This document shows positions 264 to 31,114 of a stretch of DNA of 40,469 nucleotides, one piece after another. The notes beneath the pieces were generated by a model. The model did no database searches, was not told the DNA's origin, and worked only from the letters and a program-made list of their open reading frames with translations. Each line of letters opens with the position of its first letter. Positions within the stretch are counted from its first letter, which is position 1. Location of the stretch: NCBI GenBank assembly GCA_027487315.1, contig JAIYDW010000052.1, positions 1 through 40,469 of the forward strand, written 5' to 3'. This DNA comes from Verrucomicrobiaceae bacterium (GTDB lineage Bacteria; Verrucomicrobiota; Verrucomicrobiia; Verrucomicrobiales; Verrucomicrobiaceae). The translations under genes and the position numbers were made by a program.

Positions 264-2615
264 TTACTTTAGGTTCACCCTTACCTCTTCGATCTTGCCG
301 TTGAAGGCGAAGGGGCGGCGGTCGTAGTAGAGCTTTGAAACGGGCGAGCCGAGGTCGGTGCCGACGTCGAAGGTCTCGCTGGCAGTGAAGGCGAGCGCGA
401 CGGTTTGCGGGAGTTCTAGGGTGGCGTATTCGGTGCCGTCCACTGAGATGACGACGGTGCCGGGGCTGCCGGGTTTGGCGATGGTGGTCTCCACCTGGAT
501 TTTGTGTTTGCCGGCTGGGAGTTTCTTCTCCGAACGGGTGTTGTAGCGCTCGATCATCATGAGGTTGTATTCGAAGGCGAGGTGGCCCTGCTCCATGAAA
601 AGGCTGAGTCCGCCGGAGAAGCCACCGAGGGCGTAGATCACACCGGAGGCGTTTTCAGGCACTTCGGCGGCGATGGTCACGGTGCTGGAAACGCGGCCCA
701 GGCCGGGAGCGGTGAACTCCGGCATGCGGCGGGTGGAGGCGTCGAACTCCCAGCTCTTGTATGGCGTCGAAACGCGGTCTTCGGGGTGCAGGGCATACCA
801 GAAACTGCCGCCGATGGGGAAAGCCTTGTTGGCTTCGGCTTCATTTGCGAACAAAGCGGATAGCTCGGAGACTTTCCCAGGGTTCGCTGCGGCGAGGTTG
901 TCTGCCTGGGAGAAATCCTTGCGCAGATCGTAGAGTTCCCAAGTGTCGCCGGCGGGGTCCCAGTTCTCGCCCTGCTTGGCGTGCGCGGGCACCAAGCTGG
1001 GTCCGAGGGCGCTGGCCATCCAGCCGTCGTGATAGATCGCGCGGTTGCCGAAGATTTCAAAATACTGGGTGTCCTTTTTCGGCTCCGCCTTCGGGTCGTT
1101 GAAGGTGTAGGCGAAGCTGGTGCCGTCGAGTTTGTCCTGCTTGAAGCCGTCCACGGACTCCGGCGGCGTGATGCCGGTGATTTCATAAATCGTCGGCACG
1201 ATGTCATTCACATGGGTGAACTGGGAGCGCGGCGTGGTGTCGTGCTTGATTTTGGCGGGCCAGGAAACCGCCATTGGGTTGCGGGTGCCGCCGAGGTGGG
1301 AGGCGACTTGTTTCATGTATTGGAATGGCGTGTTGCCCGCCCAGCCCCAACCGGCGTGATAGATGTTGTCGGTTTTGGCGCTGCCAAGGACGTCCAGCCC
1401 GCCAAGATCATCGAGCGTCTTCATCTGCTGCTCGACGGTGCTTTTGATTTTGTTTTGGAAGATCAGTTCGGAAATGGAGCCGTTCTGGCCGGCGGTGGCC
1501 GCGCCGTTGTCGCCGAACAGATAGAGCACGATGGTATTGTCGCGTTGGCCCTGGCGCTCCAGTTCGTCGATGATGCGTCCGGCTTCGGTGTCGGCATGCT
1601 CGACGAATCCGGCGAAGATTTCCATCAGCCGCGTCTGGAACACGTGCTGGTTTTCCGGGATGTCGCTCCAAGCCGGGATGGACGGCGGACGAGGCGTGAG
1701 TTTTGCATCGGCGGGGATCCAGCCCATCGCTTTTTGCTTGGCGAAAACTTCCTCGCGCATCTTGTCCCAGCCGCCGTCGAACTTGCCCTTGTATTTGTCC
1801 GCCCATTCCCTGGCGACGTGGTGCGGTCCGTGGCCCGCGCCCGGCGCGTAGTAGATGAAGAACGGCTTGTTCGGCGTGTAGGCGCGGTGCTGGCTCATCC
1901 AGCTAACGGCCTTGTCGGCGAGGTCGGTGGATAGGTGGTAGGATTCATCATGCGGCGGCTCGATCTGGTTCAGATTCTCGACGAGGCGCGGTTCCCATTG
2001 CGAGGTCTCGCCGGCGAGGAAGCCGTAGAAGTAGCTGAAGCCGATGCCGGAACCGGTGGGCCAGTGCGTGAACGGCCCCATCGAGGTTGTCTCGGTGGCG
2101 GGCGTGTTGTGCCATTTGCCGAAGGCGGCGGTGTTGTAGCCGTATTCGGTTAGAACCCGTGCCGCGGTGGCGGTGGTCTGCGGGATGGTGCCGATGTAGC
2201 CGTCCCAGTCGGCGGCCATCTCGGTGATCACGCCGTTGCCGACGTGGTGGTGATTGCGCCCGGTGAGCAGGGCCGCCCGGGTGGGCGAGCAGAGGGCGGT
2301 GGTATGGAACTGGTTGTAGGAAATCCCGGTCTTGGCGATGCGGTCCAGGGTGGGCGTGTGGATCGGGCCGCCATAGGTTTCCGCCTGGCCGAAACCGACA
2401 TCGTCGAGCAGGATGATGACTACATTGGGCGCGTCCTTGGCGACATGCTGCGCGGGCTTGCGCCACTGGTGGGTGGAGGCTTTGAGCGAAGGACCAGCCT
2501 TGCTTGCGGAAGGAGTGTCCGCGAATGGCAGGGCCGGGCCTGTCGCGGGCTCGGCGGCACTAACCGCTGCGTTGAGACTGCACAGGAGTGCGAGGAGTGT
2601 GATTTTCGTTTTCAT
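264..2615 (-). CDS. Secreted type I sulfatase (arylsulfatase family), copy 1
   Basis: A 783-residue sulfatase that should hydrolyse sulfate esters in the periplasm or outside the cell. Residues 1-20 form a signal peptide. The metal-binding pair D71-D72 lies in LLDDVGFGQ. C109 in CSPTR is the cysteine that family members convert to formylglycine. GKWHNT (165-170) and GDNGAA supply further active-site motifs. After the alkaline-phosphatase-like core, a C-terminal beta domain of about 170 residues ends in FDVGTDLGSPVS and PFAFNGKI, a layout shared with the other two sulfatases here. The ATG overlaps the TGA of the upstream sulfatase in an ATGA junction, so the two are probably translationally coupled. 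The substrate cannot be told from sequence alone. The maturation enzyme is not in the window. Confidence 0.95.
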   Translation of the reverse strand: MKTKITLLALLCSLNAAVSAAEPATGPALPFADTPSASKAGPSLKASTHQWRKPAQHVAKDAPNVVIILLDDVGFGQAETYGGPIHTPTLDRIAKTGISYNQFHTTALCSPTRAALLTGRNHHHVGNGVITEMAADWDGYIGTIPQTTATAARVLTEYGYNTAAFGKWHNTPATETTSMGPFTHWPTGSGIGFSYFYGFLAGETSQWEPRLVENLNQIEPPHDESYHLSTDLADKAVSWMSQHRAYTPNKPFFIYYAPGAGHGPHHVAREWADKYKGKFDGGWDKMREEVFAKQKAMGWIPADAKLTPRPPSIPAWSDIPENQHVFQTRLMEIFAGFVEHADTEAGRIIDELERQGQRDNTIVLYLFGDNGAATAGQNGSISELIFQNKIKSTVEQQMKTLDDLGGLDVLGSAKTDNIYHAGWGWAGNTPFQYMKQVASHLGGTRNPMAVSWPAKIKHDTTPRSQFTHVNDIVPTIYEITGITPPESVDGFKQDKLDGTSFAYTFNDPKAEPKKDTQYFEIFGNRAIYHDGWMASALGPSLVPAHAKQGENWDPAGDTWELYDLRKDFSQADNLAAANPGKVSELSALFANEAEANKAFPIGGSFWYALHPEDRVSTPYKSWEFDASTRRMPEFTAPGLGRVSSTVTIAAEVPENASGVIYALGGFSGGLSLFMEQGHLAFEYNLMMIERYNTRSEKKLPAGKHKIQVETTIAKPGSPGTVVISVDGTEYATLELPQTVALAFTASETFDVGTDLGSPVSKLYYDRRPFAFNGKIEEVRVNLK

Positions 2616-4951
2616 GGTTTGGAACCTGAGAAGACCTTGTCGGCGGCTTTGATCGTCACTTTCTCCAACTCGCCGGTGAAGGTGAACGGAGCCTCATATT
2701 GGTGACTGACCGGCGTGCCGGTGTTGCGACCAAACAGGAGGCCGTAACCAGTGACGGCGCTGTATTGTCCCGCTATCTTGATGTCCTTTTTCTCGGCGAC
2801 TTTCTGACCATCGACGGACAACACGAGGTCACCGAGGAAGTAGTCGGGTTTGAGGTTCTTTTGCGTCGGCGTGAAGTGCGCGCTGAGGGTGTGTTTGCCT
2901 GCAGGGATCACGTCCGGCGAGACAACATCGGCCTCGCCGAGTTTGAGGCAGTTGTGGACGTAGTGGAACTTGCCGCCCTTCAGAAACAGGCTCCAGCCGC
3001 CGAACTCCCCGCCGGTGCAGGCAAGCACGCCTTCGGCTCCTTTTTCTGGAATGACGACGTGCGCGGTGATCGTGTGCTCCACGCCGAGCAGTTGCGGCGC
3101 GGCGAGCGGATGCACGATGGAGGTGCCGGGATAGTAGGTGTATTCGTCTCGCTTCTGCGCGGCGACGGGGCGCGTGGGATCAGCCACGCGCTCGTAGCGG
3201 CGGTCGTCGAGCGGGAAGACACCGTTGGCTTCCGCTTCGTTCCGCCAGAGGTCCTGCAGTTCCTTGAGCTTGGCGGGATTGGCGGCGGCCACATCGTTGA
3301 ATTCGGTGGGATCCTCGTCGGTGTGGTAAAGCTCCCATTTATCCTCGGTGTAAGGCGCATCCTTTTTGTGCCAGACCACGGCTTTCCACCCGCCGGCCCA
3401 GATCGCGCGACTGCCGAGCATTTCAAAATACTGGGACTTCTTCCGCGTCGCCGCCGCGCCGTCGGTGAATGTGTATGCCATGCTCACGCCGGGCATCGGC
3501 TGTTGCTTCACGCCGTTGACCGAGGTCGGCGCGGGCAGGCCGGTGACTTCCAGAATGGTCGGAACGACATCCACGAGGTGGTGATACTGGTTCCGGATGA
3601 CGCCTTGTTCTTTGATCTTCGCGGGCCAGGAGACGATGAAGGCATCAGTGTTGCCGCCCGCGTGCGTGTCCTGTTTCCAGCGTTTGAAGGGCGAGTTGCC
3701 TGCCATGGACCAGCCCATGGGATAATGCGGGTCAGTGGCGGCGCTGCCGGCGGCATCGAGGTTCTTGATCATCTCCTCGACCGTATCGGGGAAGTAGTTG
3801 CGGTAGCGGTCGGTGTTCAGCGTCCCGTCGCGCAGGCCTTCCTGCGAAGCGCCGTTGTCTGAGGTGAGGATGATGAGCGTGTTGTCGGCGATGCCCATGT
3901 CATCGAGCGCGGCAAAGAGGCGTCCGATTTCGTGGTCTGCGTGATCGAGGAAACCGGCGAACACTTCCTGCAGCTTCGCATAGACCTTGCGATGATCGGC
4001 GTCCAACTCCGCCCACCGTTGCACTCCGGGATTCGCGGGCGGCAGCTTGGCGTCCGGCGGCATGATGCCGAGTTTCTTCTGCCGCTCGAAGGTCTCCTCG
4101 CGGACCTTGTCCCATCCTTGGTCGAACTTTCCCTGATACTTCGCGATGTATTCCTTCGGCGCATGCAATGGCGCGTGGCAGGCCCCGAGCGCGAGGTAGG
4201 TGAAGAACGGCCGGCCAGTGCTGGTCTGCTGGAGGTCGCGGATATAGGCGATGGTGTGATCGACGAGATCGGTCGTGAGGTGATAGCCGGGCCGGGTCGG
4301 CGTCTCGATCATCGTGTTGTCCTGGATGAGGAGCGGTGCCCATTGGTCCGTCTCGCCGCCGAGAAAGCCATAGTATTTCTCAAACCCCATGCCCAGCGGC
4401 CAGCGGTCGAACGGCCCGGCGGCCGTGTAGGCGGTATAGGGCGTGAGGTGCCATTTGCCGAGGGCCAGGGTGTTGTAGCCGTTCTGTTTCAGGGTTTCCG
4501 CGATGGTCGCCGCGCTCTTCGGGATGGAGCCGTAGTTGCCGGGGAAACCGGTGGCCGCCTCGGTGATCGCCGCCATGCTGACCGCCTGGTGATTGCGCCC
4601 GGTCAGCATTGCCGCCCGCGAGGGGGAGCAGAGTGCCGTGGTGTGAAAGTTGTTATATCGCAACCCGCGCGCCGCGAGACTGTCGATGTTGGGCGTGGCA
4701 ATCGGACCGCCATAACAGCCGATCTGACCGAAGCCCACGTCGTCCAACAGGACGATCAACACGTTCGGCGCACCCTTCGGCGCGGTGAGCGGCAGCGCAG
4801 GCGAAAAGTCCGGCGTCGAATCCTTGTAGGTCTCGCCAATCTTGCCTTTAAACTCCGGCGCGGGCGGCGGAAGGATCGTGCGGTCCTGTGCTGGCAAGGA
4901 GAATGCCGGCCAAACCAGGATGATGGAAAAGAAGAGCGCGTTGGTTTTCAT
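2612..4951 (-). CDS. Secreted type I sulfatase (arylsulfatase family), copy 2
   Basis: A 779-residue exported sulfatase. A signal peptide (about 1-21, ending SLPAQ) precedes a short linker (APEFKGKIGETYKDSTPDF) also found in the third copy. The metal pair D70-D71, C108 in CSPSR (predicted formylglycine) and GKWHLTP are all present, so the enzyme looks catalytically intact. The second half carries DNGAS and the C-terminal beta domain with GRNTGTPVSHQYEAPFTFTG. It is the upstream partner of copy 1, with a 4-nt overlap. It lies 193 bp downstream of the antiporter gene; that gap has no obvious gene. Similar length but clear divergence from copies 1 and 3 suggests old duplication and possibly different substrates (inference). 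Confidence 0.95.
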   Translation of the reverse strand: MKTNALFFSIILVWPAFSLPAQDRTILPPPAPEFKGKIGETYKDSTPDFSPALPLTAPKGAPNVLIVLLDDVGFGQIGCYGGPIATPNIDSLAARGLRYNNFHTTALCSPSRAAMLTGRNHQAVSMAAITEAATGFPGNYGSIPKSAATIAETLKQNGYNTLALGKWHLTPYTAYTAAGPFDRWPLGMGFEKYYGFLGGETDQWAPLLIQDNTMIETPTRPGYHLTTDLVDHTIAYIRDLQQTSTGRPFFTYLALGACHAPLHAPKEYIAKYQGKFDQGWDKVREETFERQKKLGIMPPDAKLPPANPGVQRWAELDADHRKVYAKLQEVFAGFLDHADHEIGRLFAALDDMGIADNTLIILTSDNGASQEGLRDGTLNTDRYRNYFPDTVEEMIKNLDAAGSAATDPHYPMGWSMAGNSPFKRWKQDTHAGGNTDAFIVSWPAKIKEQGVIRNQYHHLVDVVPTILEVTGLPAPTSVNGVKQQPMPGVSMAYTFTDGAAATRKKSQYFEMLGSRAIWAGGWKAVVWHKKDAPYTEDKWELYHTDEDPTEFNDVAAANPAKLKELQDLWRNEAEANGVFPLDDRRYERVADPTRPVAAQKRDEYTYYPGTSIVHPLAAPQLLGVEHTITAHVVIPEKGAEGVLACTGGEFGGWSLFLKGGKFHYVHNCLKLGEADVVSPDVIPAGKHTLSAHFTPTQKNLKPDYFLGDLVLSVDGQKVAEKKDIKIAGQYSAVTGYGLLFGRNTGTPVSHQYEAPFTFTGELEKVTIKAADKVFSGSKP

Positions 4952-5144
4952 AGTTAGTTGAATGGCGGACTTGGTTTAGGAAAACTTCGACGAGCCGTCG
5001 AGCTCGTCCATCCGTGTGAGGCGGAGGCGGACCAAGGAATTCCAGCCGGGATCGGCAAGCGTTCCGTTTTGGGGCCCGACGTTCAGATGGAATACATCAT
5101 CGTGACCGTTGTGTTGAGCCCGCTCCCGCTGGCGGCAGGACATG

Positions 5145-6374
5145 TCACGATTCATGCGGAGTGGGGTTCGAGTTTTTGGAGGCACCCTTGGCCTTGCTGG
5201 AAAGGGGTGAGGCGAAATGCGCCGTCATAATCGGGCCCAGCACACAGGTGACAATTACCAGGATGAGCACTGCATTGACAAATTCATTGCTCAGGAGGCG
5301 TTCGCCCTTTGAATTAAGAGCCTGATAGCCGACGACCGCTGAGGCGAGGGTTGCCGCCATCTGTGGGTAGGACAAGGTTGCCATCGTCCTGGTCTCCGCC
5401 GGCTCAAAATGATAGATTTTTCCCGTGATCCAGGCGGCCAGCGACTTGCCCCCGATGGTGCCGGCAATCAATCCAATGACCAGCAGGGGTTGCCCAAGAA
5501 GAGTCCCCTTCATGACGGCAAAGTCTACAAGGAAGCCGGTGGCGAGGAAAAAGGCCGGGATAAAAAGCGAGTGCGCCACTACCTCAAGTTGTTCGATGGC
5601 AAAGCGGCCTCGAAGCGTGCGTTTGAGCGCCAAGCCGACTAGAAATGCGCCCACGATCCCCTCAAGTTTGATGAAACTCGCCCCCTCCGCTGCCAAGGCG
5701 AGGGCCACCAGCAAGATCGTCACCCTGGCCTCAGGGGTGCCACCGTAACGGATGATTGCCATGCGCGTGAGTCTGCTCAATCCGAACAGAATAAGCGGCA
5801 CAAAGAGCGCGAGTTCAACGAGTTCGCTCAGGAGGAAGTTCCAGGAAAAACCCGTTTGGTGCACCGACACGGCGACAGCCAGGACCAGCATGGAAGCGAT
5901 ATCTGTGAAAATGGTGCCGCTCACGGTCACGCTCACGGCAGCGTTGTGGGTGAGACCAAGTTTTTGCAGGATGGGGTAGGCCAACAGCGTGTGTGAGGCG
6001 ATGATTGAGCCGATTAACACAGCGGCATTGACCGAGTATCCCAGCGCCAAGCCCAGAGCGACCCCGGCCATGAAAGGCATGGCGAAGGTGAAAAGCCCGA
6101 AAACCGCCGCCCGGTTCCGGTTTTTTTTGAACAATTCGAGGTCGATTTCGAACCCGACGAAGAACATGAACAAAAGTTTTCCCAGCTCGGAGAACAGCGA
6201 AATAATCTTGCTGTCATGATCGATCATGCCCAGAAGAGGCGGTCCGACGACCATTCCTGCGGCAATGAAGCCCAGCACGCCTGGAAGCCGGAACCGCTCC
6301 ATGAGTTTGGGCAGCAACAGAGTCATGCCCATCACCAAGGCAAACTTGGACAGCATGGAAAGGTGATCGATCAT
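5145..6374 (-). CDS. Cation:proton antiporter, CPA2/Kef-like membrane domain
   Basis: A 409-residue, very hydrophobic protein with about 11-13 predicted membrane segments, matching the Na+/H+ exchanger domain of the CPA2 (KefB/GerN-type) superfamily. Typical signs are the N-terminal LMERFRLPGVLGFIAAGMVVGP and FFVGFEIDLELFKKN segments (each only partly conserved) and the GTIFTDIASMLVLA helix, where the TD pair sits in the expected ion-binding region. It lacks the C-terminal TrkA-N/RCK domain of true Kef channels, so a simple Na+(K+)/H+ antiport role in the inner membrane is likeliest. The gene sits between sulfatase genes on the same strand, 88 bp after the sulfatase remnant and 193 bp before copy 2. 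It could help with pH or salt balance when sulfated material is broken down (inference). Confidence 0.9.
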   Translation of the reverse strand: MIDHLSMLSKFALVMGMTLLLPKLMERFRLPGVLGFIAAGMVVGPPLLGMIDHDSKIISLFSELGKLLFMFFVGFEIDLELFKKNRNRAAVFGLFTFAMPFMAGVALGLALGYSVNAAVLIGSIIASHTLLAYPILQKLGLTHNAAVSVTVSGTIFTDIASMLVLAVAVSVHQTGFSWNFLLSELVELALFVPLILFGLSRLTRMAIIRYGGTPEARVTILLVALALAAEGASFIKLEGIVGAFLVGLALKRTLRGRFAIEQLEVVAHSLFIPAFFLATGFLVDFAVMKGTLLGQPLLVIGLIAGTIGGKSLAAWITGKIYHFEPAETRTMATLSYPQMAATLASAVVGYQALNSKGERLLSNEFVNAVLILVIVTCVLGPIMTAHFASPLSSKAKGASKNSNPTPHES

Positions 6375-6462
6375 GGGTGAAATCTCTCTGCCATCAAAAG
6401 CCGGGTCTCGTCAGTGATTTTGTCGCGGCATGCGGGTTTTATCCTCCTGATAGCCAAGTGTC

Positions 6463-6717
6463 TCACCGGAGATAAATTGACAATTTGCCGAATTTATCTT
6501 CAAAGGTAAAGGGGCGGCGGTCGTTGTCGAGGTTCGAAACCGGCGAGCTGAGATCGGTGCCGACGTCGAAGGTTTCACAGGGGGGGGCGTTTTGCCTTTT
6601 GCCGAAAGCGGCGGTGTTGTAGTCGTATTCGGTGAGGACGCGGGCGGCGGCGGATGCGGGCACGCCACGCGCCAGCACGAATCCGACGACAAGAATGGAA
6701 GACAGCCTGAAATTCAT
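6463..6717 (-). pseudogene. Internally collapsed sulfatase remnant (84-codon mini-ORF)
   Basis: The frame keeps a signal peptide (1-23, MNFRLSSILVVGFVL then ARGVPASA). It then jumps to a piece matching sulfatase copy 1 residues 150-171 (AARVLTEYDYNTAAFGK), and then to the extreme C-terminus matching residues 747-783 (ETFDVGTDLSSPVS, DRRPFTF). Two large in-frame deletions (about 125 and 575 codons relative to copy 1) have removed the catalytic cysteine, both metal aspartates and nearly all of the fold. GKWHN has decayed to GKRQN. The ATG still overlaps the TGA of copy 3 by 4 nt, like the copy 2/copy 1 junction, so it marks the position of a former fourth sulfatase. A sulfatase function is impossible; a tiny secreted product is conceivable but unsupported. 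Confidence 0.85.
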
Positions 6718-9077
6718 TTGATCAGTGGTTGGGTGGGTGAAATCTCGATGGTCACGCCATTGATCTTGCCGGTGAAGGCGAAGGGCGCTTGCTTGCGGTA
6801 GGCGGCAGTGACGGTGGCTCCGAGGTCCATGCCGATGTCCATGGTTTCAGTCGCCGAGAAGCGGGCGGGCGCGACGTTTTTCACATCGCCTTTGCCCACG
6901 GACTTGCCGTTGATGAAGAGTTCGGCGGGGCCACCGGTGGATTCCTGGAGCATCTTGAACGGCTGCTGCTCGTATTTCATCGCCACTTCGACCTCGCCGG
7001 TTGGGAGCTTGTCGGCGGACTCGATGTGATAGGTCGCCTTGCCGAAGAAGTTGTAGTCGTAGGCCAGCTTGCCGTCTTTCACGTAGAGCGAATAACCGGC
7101 GGAACTGCCACCGCAGGCGACGATGACGCCGTCCGCGCCGCTCTCCGGGATGGTGAGCTTGGCGGTGATGGTGTGGGAGCGCTGATAGATCGGGGTGGCG
7201 CTGCCTTCCGGGATGCGCACGGTGCCGGCCTGATAGTTGAACTTGGTGCGGCCGGCGACGACGGACGGCCGATTGGCGAAGGCGCGCTCGGCGAAGCGGT
7301 CATCCAGCGGGAAGACGCCGAATTTCTCGGATTCACGGTCGAAGATGGCTGTGAGCTCCTTGAGCTTTTCCGGGTTCTCCGCGGCAACATCCTTCGACTG
7401 GGAGAAGTCCTGATTGATGTGATACAGACTCCATTGGCTGTCCTTGAAGCCAAGCGACCCGGTGAGAATCCACGGTGCGCCGTGGAACGAGGTGGCGACC
7501 CAGCCGTCATGGTAGATGGCGCGGTGGCCGCCGGTTTCGAAATACTGGGTGGTGCGCAGGCCGGGCGCCTCGGCCTGATCGAAAGTGTATTCCATCGGGG
7601 TGCCGGCCATAGGGACCTGCGGGATGCCATCGACTTCGGCAGGCGCGGGAATCTTGGCGGCATCGAGGATGGTCGGTGCGATGTCCACGACGTGATGGAA
7701 CTGCGTGCGAAGGGCTCCCTTGTCCTTGATCCGCGCGGGCCAGGAAATGATCATGCCATTGCGGGTGCCACCGAAGTGCGAGGGCACGCGCTTCATCCAT
7801 TGGAAGGGGGCTGCACCGGCCCACGACCAACCGACCGGATAGTGATTTTCGTGGAGCGGCCCACCGATTTCATCGATCAGGGGAAGCTGACCCGCCACTG
7901 TGTCGGGAATGCCGCTCTGGGTCATCATGTTGTTGAGCGTGCCGGTGACGCTGCCCTCGGCGCTCGGGCCGTTGTCGCCGATCACGCAGATGATCATCGT
8001 GTTCTCGGCCTGAGGAGAATGCTCGATGGCATCAATGAGCCGTCCGACGTGGTAGTCCGTATGCGCTAGGAAGCCGGCAAATGTTTCCATATGCCGGGCG
8101 TAAAGTGTTTTCGCATCTGCGCTCAGCGAGTCCCATGCCTCGATTTCCTTCGGCCGCGGGGTGAGCTGCGTGTCGGCGGGCACCACGCCTAGCTGTTTCT
8201 GACGGGCGAGAGTTTCCTCACGGACTTTATCCCAGCCCTGGTCGAACTTTCCGTTGAATTTGTTGATCCATTCCTTGGGCGCGTGGAGCGGGGCATGGGC
8301 AGCACCGGGCGCGAAATACATGAAGTAGGGCTTGGTCGGCGCGACCGACTCGTGATTGCCGATCCAGCGGATCGCATTGTCCACCAGGTCTTCGGTGAGG
8401 TGGTAGCCTTGTTCGGCGTTTTTTGGTGGTTCGACGGCGGTGGTGTTAAGATAGAGCTGCGGTTCCCACTGGCTGGTTTCCCCGCCGTGGAAGCCGTAGA
8501 AATACTCAAAGCCCATTCCGGTCGGCCAGTGGTCGAAGGGCCCCACGGCATTGGTTTCCCAATCCGGGGTGTTGTGGTTCTTCCCCCACATTCCGGTGCT
8601 GTAGCCGTTGTCGCGCAGGATGCGGGCGACGCTGGCGGCGTTCTTCGGGAGGATGCTGTTATAGCCGGGATAGCCGGTGGAAAGCTCGGTGATGGTGCCG
8701 GTTGCGACAGTGTGGTGATTGCGGCCAGTGAGCAGGGAGGCACGCGTGGGCGAGCAGATGCCGGTGGTGTGGAAACGATTGTAGCGCAGGCCTTGGGCGG
8801 CGATTTTATCGAGGTTCGGCGTCGGCACCGGACCACCGAAGGTTCCGGGTTGGCCGAAGCCGACATCGTCTAGCAGGATGAAGACCACGTTCGGCGCATC
8901 TTCGGGCGCGGTCACGCCCTGCGGAAAGTCGGGAGTGGAGTCTGCAAAGGTCTTGCCGATTTTTCCTGTGAACGATGGATCGGGGATCGGGAGCCGCGAA
9001 CGTTGGTCGGCTGTTTGTCCGAAAGCCGGGAATGGCAACAGCGCGGTTATTGCAATGAGTGGGGCGAGCGATTTCAT
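6714..9077 (-). CDS. Secreted type I sulfatase (arylsulfatase family), copy 3
   Basis: A 787-residue exported sulfatase. A signal peptide (about 1-20, ending FPAFGQ) is followed by the D70-D71 metal pair and C108 in CSPTR, the predicted formylglycine site. The usual GKWH motif reads GKNHNTPDWE here, so the lysine and histidine are kept but the tryptophan is replaced. GDNGPS and the C-terminal beta domain with MDIGMDLGATV and APFAFTGKI complete the family layout. It is the first sulfatase of the run, 227 bp downstream of the outer-membrane barrel gene, across a gap that contains a strong inverted repeat. The start ATG at 9077 gives a good signal peptide directly. Likely periplasmic; substrate unknown. 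Confidence 0.95.
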   Translation of the reverse strand: MKSLAPLIAITALLPFPAFGQTADQRSRLPIPDPSFTGKIGKTFADSTPDFPQGVTAPEDAPNVVFILLDDVGFGQPGTFGGPVPTPNLDKIAAQGLRYNRFHTTGICSPTRASLLTGRNHHTVATGTITELSTGYPGYNSILPKNAASVARILRDNGYSTGMWGKNHNTPDWETNAVGPFDHWPTGMGFEYFYGFHGGETSQWEPQLYLNTTAVEPPKNAEQGYHLTEDLVDNAIRWIGNHESVAPTKPYFMYFAPGAAHAPLHAPKEWINKFNGKFDQGWDKVREETLARQKQLGVVPADTQLTPRPKEIEAWDSLSADAKTLYARHMETFAGFLAHTDYHVGRLIDAIEHSPQAENTMIICVIGDNGPSAEGSVTGTLNNMMTQSGIPDTVAGQLPLIDEIGGPLHENHYPVGWSWAGAAPFQWMKRVPSHFGGTRNGMIISWPARIKDKGALRTQFHHVVDIAPTILDAAKIPAPAEVDGIPQVPMAGTPMEYTFDQAEAPGLRTTQYFETGGHRAIYHDGWVATSFHGAPWILTGSLGFKDSQWSLYHINQDFSQSKDVAAENPEKLKELTAIFDRESEKFGVFPLDDRFAERAFANRPSVVAGRTKFNYQAGTVRIPEGSATPIYQRSHTITAKLTIPESGADGVIVACGGSSAGYSLYVKDGKLAYDYNFFGKATYHIESADKLPTGEVEVAMKYEQQPFKMLQESTGGPAELFINGKSVGKGDVKNVAPARFSATETMDIGMDLGATVTAAYRKQAPFAFTGKINGVTIEISPTQPLIK

Positions 9078-27911: not shown

Positions 27912-28958
27912 ATGGTTTGGATGAGTGTTGCGCGGAAAGAGGTCGAAATCGCTGGGGGTGGGTTGGCGGGGTTGAGTTTGGGGGTGGCGTTGAGGGGGAG
28001 GGGGGTGCCGGTGCGGGTGCGGGAGGCGGGGGTGTATCCGCGGCATCGGGTTTGCGGGGAGTTTATTTCGGGGGTGACGGATGATGAGTTGGGTGGGTTA
28101 GGGATTGCGGATTTGTTGGAGGATGCGGAGCGGCATACGAGCACGGTTTGGTTTGATGAGGGAGGGGAGGTGATGCGGGGGGAGTTGCCGAGTGCGGCGC
28201 GGGGGGTGAGTCGGTTTTGCTTGGATTTGCGGTTGGTGCAGCGGTTGCGGGAGCTGGGGGGGATGGTGGAGACGGGGGCGCGGGTGGAAGGGGTGGCTGG
28301 GGGACGGGAGGGGTTGGTTTTGGCGGTGGGGAGGCCGAGGCGGGAGTCGAAGTGGCTGGGGTTGAAGGCGCACTATTCTGATTTGCGGCTGGAGGCGGGG
28401 TTGGAGGTGCATGTGACGGGGAAGGGGTATGTGGGGCTGACGGGGGTGGAGGATGGGAGGGTGAATGTGTGCGGGCTGTTTGATCGGGGTGAGGCTTTGG
28501 GGGCGGGTGGGCGTGGGGGGGCCGTAGTGCGGGCGGTGAGGGAGGCGGGTTTGGGGGAGTTGGCGGGGCGGTTGGAGGAGGCGGAGGTGGATGAGCGGTC
28601 GGTGACCGGGGTGAAGCAGTTTTTGCTGGGGTGGCAGCCGCGAGCGGGGGTGGATGAGTTGAGGTTGGGGGATCAGGCGGCGATGATTCCGCCGTTTACG
28701 GGGAACGGGATGAGCATGGCGTTTCAGGGGGCGCTGGATGCGGTGGAGCCTCTGGTGGGTTGGAGTGAGGGGCGGATGGGGTGGCGGGAGGCGGTGAGTA
28801 TGGTGCGGAAGGCGCATCGGAGGCGGTTTGGGGCGCGGTTACGCTGGTCGTGGCTTTTGCATGGGCTGCTGTTGAACGGGGGGACGCGACAGGTGTGCCT
28901 GGGGCTGGTGCGACAGGGGTGGGTGCCGTTTGAGGCGATTTATCGGCGGGTGCGGTGA
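27912..28958 (+). CDS. FAD-dependent oxidoreductase (geranylgeranyl-reductase-like)
   Basis: A 348-residue flavoprotein. The N-terminal dinucleotide motif EIAGGGLAGLSLGVALRGRG, the RHRVCGEFIS motif and the second FAD motif GDQAAMIPPFTGNGMSMAFQ place it in the geranylgeranyl-reductase/halogenase-like group of FAD oxidoreductases. The substrate is unknown; relatives often act on isoprenoids or polyketide products, and here there is no such neighbour. The start is the ATG at 27912 or at 27921; the first has GAGG close upstream. The coding strand is extremely G-rich even for this window. It lies 57 bp before nuoF on the same strand, but a regulatory site and promoter separate them. Confidence 0.9.
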   Translation: MVWMSVARKEVEIAGGGLAGLSLGVALRGRGVPVRVREAGVYPRHRVCGEFISGVTDDELGGLGIADLLEDAERHTSTVWFDEGGEVMRGELPSAARGVSRFCLDLRLVQRLRELGGMVETGARVEGVAGGREGLVLAVGRPRRESKWLGLKAHYSDLRLEAGLEVHVTGKGYVGLTGVEDGRVNVCGLFDRGEALGAGGRGGAVVRAVREAGLGELAGRLEEAEVDERSVTGVKQFLLGWQPRAGVDELRLGDQAAMIPPFTGNGMSMAFQGALDAVEPLVGWSEGRMGWREAVSMVRKAHRRRFGARLRWSWLLHGLLLNGGTRQVCLGLVRQGWVPFEAIYRRVR

Positions 28959-28960
28959 GC

Positions 28961-28978
28961 TTGTGAAATTTTTCACAA
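28961..28978. promoter_or_regulatory. Rex-type operator upstream of nuoF
   Basis: TTGTGAAA-TT-TTTCACAA is a perfect 18-bp palindrome that fits the known Rex consensus TTGTGAA-N4-TTCACAA. It begins 2 bp after the preceding stop codon and 38 bp before the nuoF ATG. Rex is an NADH/NAD+-sensing repressor known to control NADH dehydrogenase genes in Streptomyces, so both position and target agree. Confidence 0.72.
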
Positions 28979-28985
28979 ATCCCTC

Positions 28986-29013
28986 TTGCCGCTCTGTGGC
29001 GTAACCGGATAAT
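28986..29013 (+). promoter_or_regulatory. Candidate nuoF promoter
   Basis: TTGCCG (28986-28991) and GATAAT (29008-29013) are spaced 16 bp apart. The -10 box ends only 2 bp before the ATG at 29016, so transcription might begin at about 29019-29021, where a second ATG lies. That would give a leaderless mRNA. The Rex-like palindrome lies just upstream. Confidence 0.35.
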
Positions 29014-29015
29014 GC

Positions 29016-30416
29016 ATGATGGCCTCCGCAATCACTTATCTTCCTGGCAAAGAACCGCATGTCCGGGAGCATCGTTTGATCTTCAAGAACATTGATCGTG
29101 TGGGGTATGACCCTTCGATCGAGTGCTACGAGCAAAACGGGGGCTATGCGCAGCTGAAGAAGGCGTTCACGATGGCGCCTGCGGACATCACGAATGAGGT
29201 GAAGAAGTCGGGGTTGCGGGGTCGGGGAGGTGCGGGCTTTCCGACAGGGGTGAAGTGGGGTTTCATTCCGCCGACGAATACGAAGCCGGTGTACATCATT
29301 TGCAACGCGGATGAGTCAGAGCCGGGGACGTTTAAAGATCGGTATATTCTGCATCAGGACCCGCATCAGTTGCTGGAGGGCATGATCATCGCATGCTTCG
29401 CGGTGGGTGCGAAGCTGGGTTACATTTACATTCGCGAGGAGTTTCCGATGGCGGCGGTGATTGTGGAGAAGGCGATCGCTGAGGCGCATGCGAAGGGGTA
29501 TTTGGGGAAGAACATTCAGGGGTCGGGTTTTGATTGCGAGCTGTATGTGCACCGCGGCGCGGGGGCTTACATTTGCGGGGAAGAGACGGGGTTAATTGAG
29601 AGCCTGGAGGGCAAGCGCCCGTATCCGCGGATCAAGCCTCCGTATTTCCCGGCGGCGTTGGGTTTGTACATGTGCCCGACGATTGTGAACAATGTGGAGT
29701 CGCTGTGCCATGTGAAGCACATTTTGGAGATGGGTGGTGAGACGTATGCGAAGCTGGGGACGCCGAACAACACGGGGACTCGGATTCTGTGTGTGTCTGG
29801 CGATGTGGTGAACCCGGGTTATTTTGAGGTGGAAGTGGGCAAGGTGACAATGGGGGAAGTGATCGACGTGCTCTGCGGTGGGTTGAAGCCGGGGCGGAAG
29901 CTGAAGGCGATCATTCCTGGGGGCTCGTCGGCCAAGGTTTTGCGGGCGGATGAGACGTTCAAGCTGAAGGATGGTCGGGAGCTGACGATCATGGACATCC
30001 CGATGGATTTTGACACGATGGCGGCGTGTGGATCGATGGCGGGATCCGGCGGAGTGATCATCATGGATGACAGCCGGTCGATGAGCTGGGTGATCAACAA
30101 TTTGAACAACTTTTATGCGCACGAGTCGTGCGGGCAGTGCACGCCGTGTCGTGAGGGAAGTTTGTGGATGAAGAAGATCAGCGACCGGATCGTGGCCGGG
30201 ACGGCGAGTCCGGATGATGTGGACACGCTGGAGAGCGTGGCGAACCAGATTGAGGGCAAGACGATCTGCGCGTTTGGTGAGGCGTGTTCCTGGCCGACTC
30301 AGAGCTTCATCAAGAAGTTTGGGGAGGAGTTGAAGGGGGATTGCAAGCCGGAGTTGGCGGGCAAGGTGGTGGCGGAGGAGGGCCTGGTGGCGGCGGCTGG
30401 ATTGGTGGGGGTATAA
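29016..30416 (+). CDS. nuoF: NADH-quinone oxidoreductase subunit F
   Basis: A 466-residue NuoF, the NADH- and FMN-binding subunit of respiratory complex I on the cytoplasmic side. The glycine-rich FMN/NADH motif GRGGAGFPTG spans 69-78, followed by CNADESEPGTFKDR and GAGAYICGEETGLIESLEG. The N3 iron-sulfur cluster cysteines are C372, C375 and C378 in SCGQCTPC plus C418 in TICAFG. Unlike the usual arrangement there is no nuoE before it and no nuoG after it, so it is detached from the rest of the operon. A Rex-like operator lies in the upstream spacer. Paralogous HoxF/HndC-type flavin subunits are alternatives, but the length and lack of fused ferredoxin domains favour NuoF. Confidence 0.95.
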   Translation: MMASAITYLPGKEPHVREHRLIFKNIDRVGYDPSIECYEQNGGYAQLKKAFTMAPADITNEVKKSGLRGRGGAGFPTGVKWGFIPPTNTKPVYIICNADESEPGTFKDRYILHQDPHQLLEGMIIACFAVGAKLGYIYIREEFPMAAVIVEKAIAEAHAKGYLGKNIQGSGFDCELYVHRGAGAYICGEETGLIESLEGKRPYPRIKPPYFPAALGLYMCPTIVNNVESLCHVKHILEMGGETYAKLGTPNNTGTRILCVSGDVVNPGYFEVEVGKVTMGEVIDVLCGGLKPGRKLKAIIPGGSSAKVLRADETFKLKDGRELTIMDIPMDFDTMAACGSMAGSGGVIIMDDSRSMSWVINNLNNFYAHESCGQCTPCREGSLWMKKISDRIVAGTASPDDVDTLESVANQIEGKTICAFGEACSWPTQSFIKKFGEELKGDCKPELAGKVVAEEGLVAAAGLVGV

Positions 30417-30595: not shown

Positions 30596-31114
30596 ATGAA
30601 GAAATTGTCTTATTTGAATGGCACAGAATGTGAGCCAGTAACTGAGATCGATGTTGCCTCTTTTAAGGAAGCTATAGGACTTGATCGGTTATCCGAGACC
30701 TTTGTGAGTTACTGTAAATCACAAAATGGAGGGGTTCCGGCCCCCAGTTGTGAGTACTTTGTCCCTGACTCTTCTAAGATTGAATATTGGAATTTTTGTC
30801 AGCAGAGGTTTATCAACCCCGCAGGGGAAATTGATATAAGTAAATTGTTAGGCATTACTTCACAAGATAGGTTTTCAATTCTGCATTGGACGAGTAACGC
30901 AAGGCGGATTTGGGGATTGGCTGGTGACTATTTTTGTGTCGCGTATGATGGGATCGGAAGCAAGATTGTGAGCCGATTGGTAGATGGGGCCGATCAGGTA
31001 TACTTTTGGGAACCCCATGTGGAACCGCATTTTTTTCTGATCGCCGACAGCCTAGCTGATTTTTATGATGGTCTGGGGATGGCTCCTGATGTTCCTGACA
31101 CTGAGTTGGATTAG
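30596..31114 (+). CDS. SUKH (SMI1/KNR4)-like protein
   Basis: A 172-residue acidic protein. The layout LSETFVSYCKSQNGGVPAPS, then SKLLGITSQD, AYDGIGSKIV, VYFWEPH and IADSLADFYDGL follows the SMI1/KNR4 (SUKH) fold: an N-terminal helix, 'xNGGxP' turn, central sheet and a closing helix. Many bacterial SUKH proteins are immunity proteins against secreted or contact-dependent nuclease toxins, but no toxin gene is visible here. The gene is clearly more AT-rich than its neighbours and has no Shine-Dalgarno sequence, its ATG following CTACTTTTTT. Probably acquired horizontally. Confidence 0.75.
   Translation: MKKLSYLNGTECEPVTEIDVASFKEAIGLDRLSETFVSYCKSQNGGVPAPSCEYFVPDSSKIEYWNFCQQRFINPAGEIDISKLLGITSQDRFSILHWTSNARRIWGLAGDYFCVAYDGIGSKIVSRLVDGADQVYFWEPHVEPHFFLIADSLADFYDGLGMAPDVPDTELD

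Follow-up and report, generated by a model that had tools for sequence, protein, structure and literature searches.

A Rex-type operator and a conserved promoter precede nuoF

The window (the whole 40,469-nucleotide stretch of DNA from a Verrucomicrobiaceae bacterium that we analysed) carries nuoF, which encodes the NADH-binding subunit of complex I (Table 1). The nuoF product exceeds the cut-off of NCBIfam model TIGR01959 (562.9 bits; cut-off 558.65) and has matches to the Pfam families Complex1_51K and NADH_4Fe-4S. Upstream lies the exact 18-mer TTGTGAAATTTTTCACAA, a palindrome that matches the 18-bp Rex consensus TTGTGAA-N4-TTCACAA perfectly and has an A/T-rich spacer (ATTT). The initial annotation had reported a perfect Rex-type palindrome at exactly this position, between the preceding stop codon and a nuoF promoter, and both statements proved correct: the upstream stop codon ends 2 bp before the palindrome, and the promoter, which begins 7 bp downstream of it, is backed by conservation. 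The upstream gene encodes a FAD-dependent oxidoreductase-like protein with a weak, below-cut-off match to the geranylgeranyl reductase family.

The -35 element TTGCCG is present in all 15 nuoF sites compared, at a distance of 5-7 bp from the operator, and the 16-bp spacer to the -10 element is kept in 14 of them. A conserved ATGGCC in relatives (protein start MAS...) favours the second of two possible nuoF start codons. As this ATG follows the -10 element by only 5-8 nt, here (window 29008-29021) and in most relatives, the nuoF mRNA is probably leaderless, and the predicted transcription start would place the operator at about -59 to -42.

Table 1. Coordinates of features in the window and of the rex locus elsewhere in the source genome
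Feature	Position	Strand	Remarks
Arylsulfatase-like genes (three)	264-2615, 2612-4951, 6714-9077 (together 264-9077)	-	Large; recognised by eye
FAD-dependent oxidoreductase-like gene	27936..28958	+	5' neighbour of the operator; start uncertain
Rex operator TTGTGAAATTTTTCACAA	28961..28978	.	Palindrome with W4 spacer; kept before nuoF in relatives
-35 element TTGCCG, nuoF promoter	28986..28991	+	7 bp 3' of the operator
-10 element GATAAT, nuoF promoter	29008..29013	+	16-bp spacer from -35
nuoF, NADH-binding subunit of complex I	29019..30416	+	ORF listed from 29016; start at 29019 favoured
SMI1/KNR4 (SUKH) family gene	30596-31114		Shortly 3' of nuoF
16-bp rex palindrome ATGTGATTTTTCACAA	L035:4620-4635		Adjoins the rex start codon
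rex	L035:4636-5253 (contig C202)		Matches to NCBIfam models and PDB chains

Among the neighbouring genes are one of the SUKH family, whose members are often toxin immunity proteins, and three that are arylsulfatase-like.

Seven perfect sites precede respiratory and ATP synthase units

Allowing up to three mismatches, the window alone gives two matches against 0.92 expected, a comparison that is uninformative. The source genome (5.87 Mb, 256 contigs) was searched with the pattern TTGTGAANNNNTTCACAA and, as a control, with the reversed pattern. There were seven perfect matches genome-wide and none for the control. With up to two mismatches allowed, the whole genome held 14 sites, seven of them perfect and seven with two mismatches, against seven control matches; sites with exactly one mismatch were absent from the whole genome. 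The perfect sites thus stand clear of the background, since one-mismatch sites are lacking and two-mismatch sites occur only at the control level.

Read with 10-17 kb of context, and with subunits other than nuoF assigned by inspection of their sequences, the seven sites precede nuoDE, nuoBC, nuoF, nuoG, nuoHIJKLMN, actA-B-C-D-E (the genes for alternative complex III), and atpB-E-F-H-A-G-D-C. Thirteen of the 14 complex I genes, dispersed over five units, therefore lie behind a site. The sole exception is nuoA, a stand-alone gene on another contig (L216 from ~1438; G000:C145), at which no Rex site was found. The further copies of the palindrome that the initial annotation proposed to look for thus exist, each ahead of a unit for oxidative phosphorylation (OXPHOS), and together they seem to place nearly the entire respiratory chain and the ATP synthase under one redox switch. 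That annotation had also suggested redox feedback on electron entry at nuoF itself; the operator is there, but nuoF is not singled out, as most OXPHOS loci share it. Control specific to nuoF is accordingly rejected, the site being common to all major OXPHOS units.

These counts also bear on whether the palindrome arose by chance or serves as the terminator of the upstream gene. It follows the stop codon directly and could fold into a short A/T-rich hairpin; yet no T-run lies downstream, the seven copies (none in the control) each precede an OXPHOS unit and have varied upstream contexts, and conservation before the downstream genes contradicts such an origin. Chance is rejected by the reversed-control patterns in this genome and in 40 genomes of the family, and we give either explanation practically no credence.

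The genome encodes Rex, and rex has a shorter palindrome of its own

The Rex homologue that the annotation had called for is encoded on contig C202 (G000:C202). The protein has full-length matches to curated NCBIfam models (NF003995, 246 bits, cut-off 126; NF003993, 243 bits, cut-off 217), passes the cut-offs of six Rex models in all (the former two and NF003992, NF003996, NF003994, and NF003989), and matches Rex chains in the PDB with an E value of 7e-45. Rex of T. maritima contacts DNA through the winged-helix residues Arg12, Ser33, Glu34, Lys43, Gln46, Arg48, Lys49, Ser52, Gly58, Arg60, Gly61, and Tyr64 (PMC8836258). Mapped by alignment, 11 of these 12 residues are identical here, the exception being Ser52, which is replaced by Thr53. 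The NAD(H) pocket is also kept, with the GxGxxG motif as G90-V-G-N-L-G95 and with Y101, D116, and D192 as equivalents of Tyr100, Asp115, and Asp191, so that the NADH switch retains its Tyr and Asp. Judged by its sequence and the curated models, the protein is Rex.

Autoregulation of rex is common but not universal. No 18-bp site was found at the genome's own rex, where only a 16-bp form, ATGTGATTTTTCACAA, is present. The 23 rex loci of the family that we examined (including L015-L037) carry the 2-bp-spacer palindrome GTGAWWWWTCAC or, in three cases, a perfect TTGTGAA-N2-TTCACAA, which ends at the rex start or 3 bp before it, so that the half-sites are 2 bp closer together than in the nuo and atp operators. 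A TTGACA-like element precedes this palindrome in most family rex loci, and because it is located behind that element, the palindrome would probably cover the rex -10 element. In the sample of f2 genomes, no rex locus showed the 16-bp form.

Operators and rex are present and lost together

Across 40 genomes of the family, perfect sites total 311 (summed from the per-genome table) against a single control match, and every genome has 4-11. For the order we profiled 212 genomes, counting as rex-positive those with a Rex N-terminal domain above the cut-off. All 162 rex-positive genomes have at least two perfect sites, and 46 of the 50 rex-negative genomes have none. The exceptions are one genome with a single site whose spacer contains G/C and three drafts (G295, G326, and G339; 90-95% complete) with 4-7 sites in which no rex was found; the drafts count against the Rex reading, as does the lack of a site at nuoA. 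Both rex and the sites are absent from three genera (g12, parts of g14, and parts of g159), and this distribution makes several separate losses likely. In rex-less G249, G372, and G358, operator remnants with 1, 2, or 4 mismatches persist before nuoD (one mismatch at L247, four at L248, and two at L249). Such lineages, with rex lost and operators decaying, are natural controls.

Elsewhere in the phylum, few perfect sites occur. The distant members G200 and G095 each have their sole perfect site directly before rex (L151, L152). Two more distant members (L154, L156) have single perfect sites before operons with nuoE-like genes, which possibly encode NADH-dependent hydrogenases.

The same profile addresses the alternative that a CRP/FNR-family regulator, and not Rex, uses the palindrome. 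The CRP consensus is TGTGA-N6-TCACA, which the palindrome core matches exactly, and weak matches to the Crp-type helix-turn-helix are present in the genome. Over the 212 genomes, however, the sites track rex and not these matches, which occur in site-less g12 and are missing from site-rich G006 and G008. Furthermore, the palindrome shares with Rex sites an invariant W4 spacer and invariant bases at its outer (T/A) and inner (A/T) positions, the identical sequence occurs at rex in distant lineages, and the centre, near -50.5, is not among the usual positions for activation by CRP. We therefore rejected CRP/FNR as the regulator on the order profile, and regard this alternative as very improbable.

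Fragments of split nuo and atp operons have operators of their own

Of the 133 sites read within the order, 131 precede nuo, act, atp, polyprenyl diphosphate synthase, or ndh2 genes (102/104 in 15 genomes and eight named contigs, and 29/29 in four genomes from three additional families); of the two others among the 104, one belongs to a nuoF truncated at the end of its contig. A perfect site in G010 (L119:4477) is found ~160 bp before a gene for an RNA-binding (RRM) protein with no obvious role in respiration. At least seven genomes have a site at the gene for polyprenyl diphosphate synthase, which probably serves the quinone tail.

The palindrome is kept upstream of nuoF in relatives in which nuoF heads its own unit, and the close cultured relative Brevifollis gellanilyticus has the nuoF site as well (L042); where nuoF is part of a nuoDEF... 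operon, the site precedes nuoD instead (L251, L252, L254, L255). Operon structure ranges widely. G273 has nuoD-N as a single operon with a single site, and G275 likewise has one operon and one site for nuoD-L, to the end of the stretch examined. In the window's family, split-off nuoE (L122, L135, L160) or nuoI-J (L125) have a site of their own. G284 (f57) has 13 sites, one each at nuoBC, nuoD, nuoE, nuoF, nuoG, nuoH, nuoIJK, nuoM, actA, atpB, atpA, atpG, and atpD. Its atpG, atpD, atpA, and atpB each carry their own site (L220, L261, L265, and L263), as if the atp operon had been broken up. Among the relatives read, operon fragments with their own operators thus comprise nuoE, nuoI, nuoM, atpA, atpD, and atpG. 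Because operons in the order range from intact (nuoD-N, one site) to scattered (13 sites), how the genes of one complex stay co-regulated after operon break-up becomes testable.

The promoter is part of the pattern. Of 83 nuo/atp-type sites, 66 are followed after 4-8 bp by a TTG... element and, 15-18 bp beyond that, by a hexamer resembling -10; shuffled sequence gives a mean of 1.3. The operator-to--10 distance is near constant, composed of a gap of 7 and a spacer of 16 bp or, in nuoB, of 5 and 18 bp. At actA and the polyprenyl synthase genes, the operator is ~10-45 bp ahead of the start codon.

A broader proposal is about as likely as not: that in Verrucomicrobiales, as operons break, a Rex operator accompanies every fragment of the complex I gene set (and, in one genome, of the ATP synthase genes); that a near-invariant block (operator, 7 bp, TTGCCG, 16 bp, GATAnT), in up to 13 copies per genome, keeps the scattered OXPHOS genes in register; and that in the window's family Rex sets its own level through the 2-bp-spacer operator over its own -10 element, read as a different, weaker site.

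A proposed redox switch for oxidative phosphorylation

The palindrome is very probably an operator of the genome's Rex, within a regulon of complex I, alternative complex III, and ATP synthase. This reading has its basis in the DNA, namely the operator, the promoter, the Rex gene, the set of targets, and the co-loss with rex; binding, the sign of control, and release by NADH are extrapolated from studied Rex proteins. In those, the NAD+-bound form binds DNA and represses, and NADH releases it (PMC5355995; PMC2883068; PMC8836258). By analogy, at a high ratio of NAD+ to NADH a dimer of Rex would occupy the operator (~ -59 to -42), which lies shortly before the -35 element, and reduce transcription. 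It would probably act by obstructing RNA polymerase or the alpha C-terminal domain of the enzyme, and the A/T-rich operator centre is a possible binding site for that domain. As NADH builds up, it would bind Rex, and Rex would leave the operator. The complex I, complex III, and ATP synthase units would then be induced jointly, adding NADH-oxidising capacity. We infer feedback on oxidative phosphorylation as a whole because the same operator stands at nearly all complex I loci, at alternative complex III, and at ATP synthase.

The position of the nuoF operator counts against this scheme in one respect: it lies upstream of -35, unlike the S. avermitilis nuo and atp operators, which overlap it, and steric repression is therefore less obvious. 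Rex might instead bind and activate, or mainly modulate, transcription. The nuo and atp operators overlap neither -35 nor -10, and the near-constant operator-to--10 distance is what contact with RNA polymerase on one helix face would give; constant spacing would equally result if the promoter blocks shared an ancestor or if the A/T centre served as an UP element. The actA and polyprenyl synthase operators, however, are in a repressor position, and activation by Rex-NAD+ would cut NADH oxidation as NADH rises, a perverse sign. We judge activation improbable and favour repression.

Relation to known Rex regulons

In Streptomyces, Rex has already been demonstrated to control nuo and atp by way of this operator. 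Rex of S. avermitilis bound nuo and atp and repressed both; its regulon resembles the one described here in its consensus (TTGTGAANNNNTTCACAA), in having the nuo and atp operons and ndh2 as direct targets, and in its NADH-released repressor (PMC5355995). There, however, a single imperfect operator, which overlaps -35, serves an undivided nuoA-N operon, and cydABCD and the hem genes are targets as well (PMC5355995). In the present genome the operators are perfect and lie a short way upstream of -35, each scattered unit has one, and alternative complex III (in relatives, also polyprenyl diphosphate synthase) is a target. Rex of S. aureus is released by NADH from the operator TTGTGAAW4TTCACAA, which has the same W4 spacer, but its targets are anaerobic and fermentation genes (adhE, ldh1, pflB, nirR, and others), with nuo unmentioned (PMC2883068).

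In the literature that we searched, neither Rex in Verrucomicrobiota nor the control of dispersed complex I genes by a single regulator was the subject of any paper, and no experiments on a verrucomicrobial Rex turned up. As far as searched, what is new is the phylum, two of the targets (alternative complex III and polyprenyl synthase), the pattern of one operator per fragment, and the 2-bp-shorter rex palindrome. With these findings, the control of respiration by Rex extends to Verrucomicrobiota, where the regulon is very clean and appears to span the entry of NADH, the oxidation of quinol, and the synthesis of ATP together.

Bacillus subtilis offers a further parallel: Rex is reported to control ndh and so to close an NADH feedback loop (Gyan et al. 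2006, as cited in PMC2883068), the enzyme there being a Type II NADH dehydrogenase and not complex I. In the order studied here, a site at ndh2 was seen in G215 only (L144).
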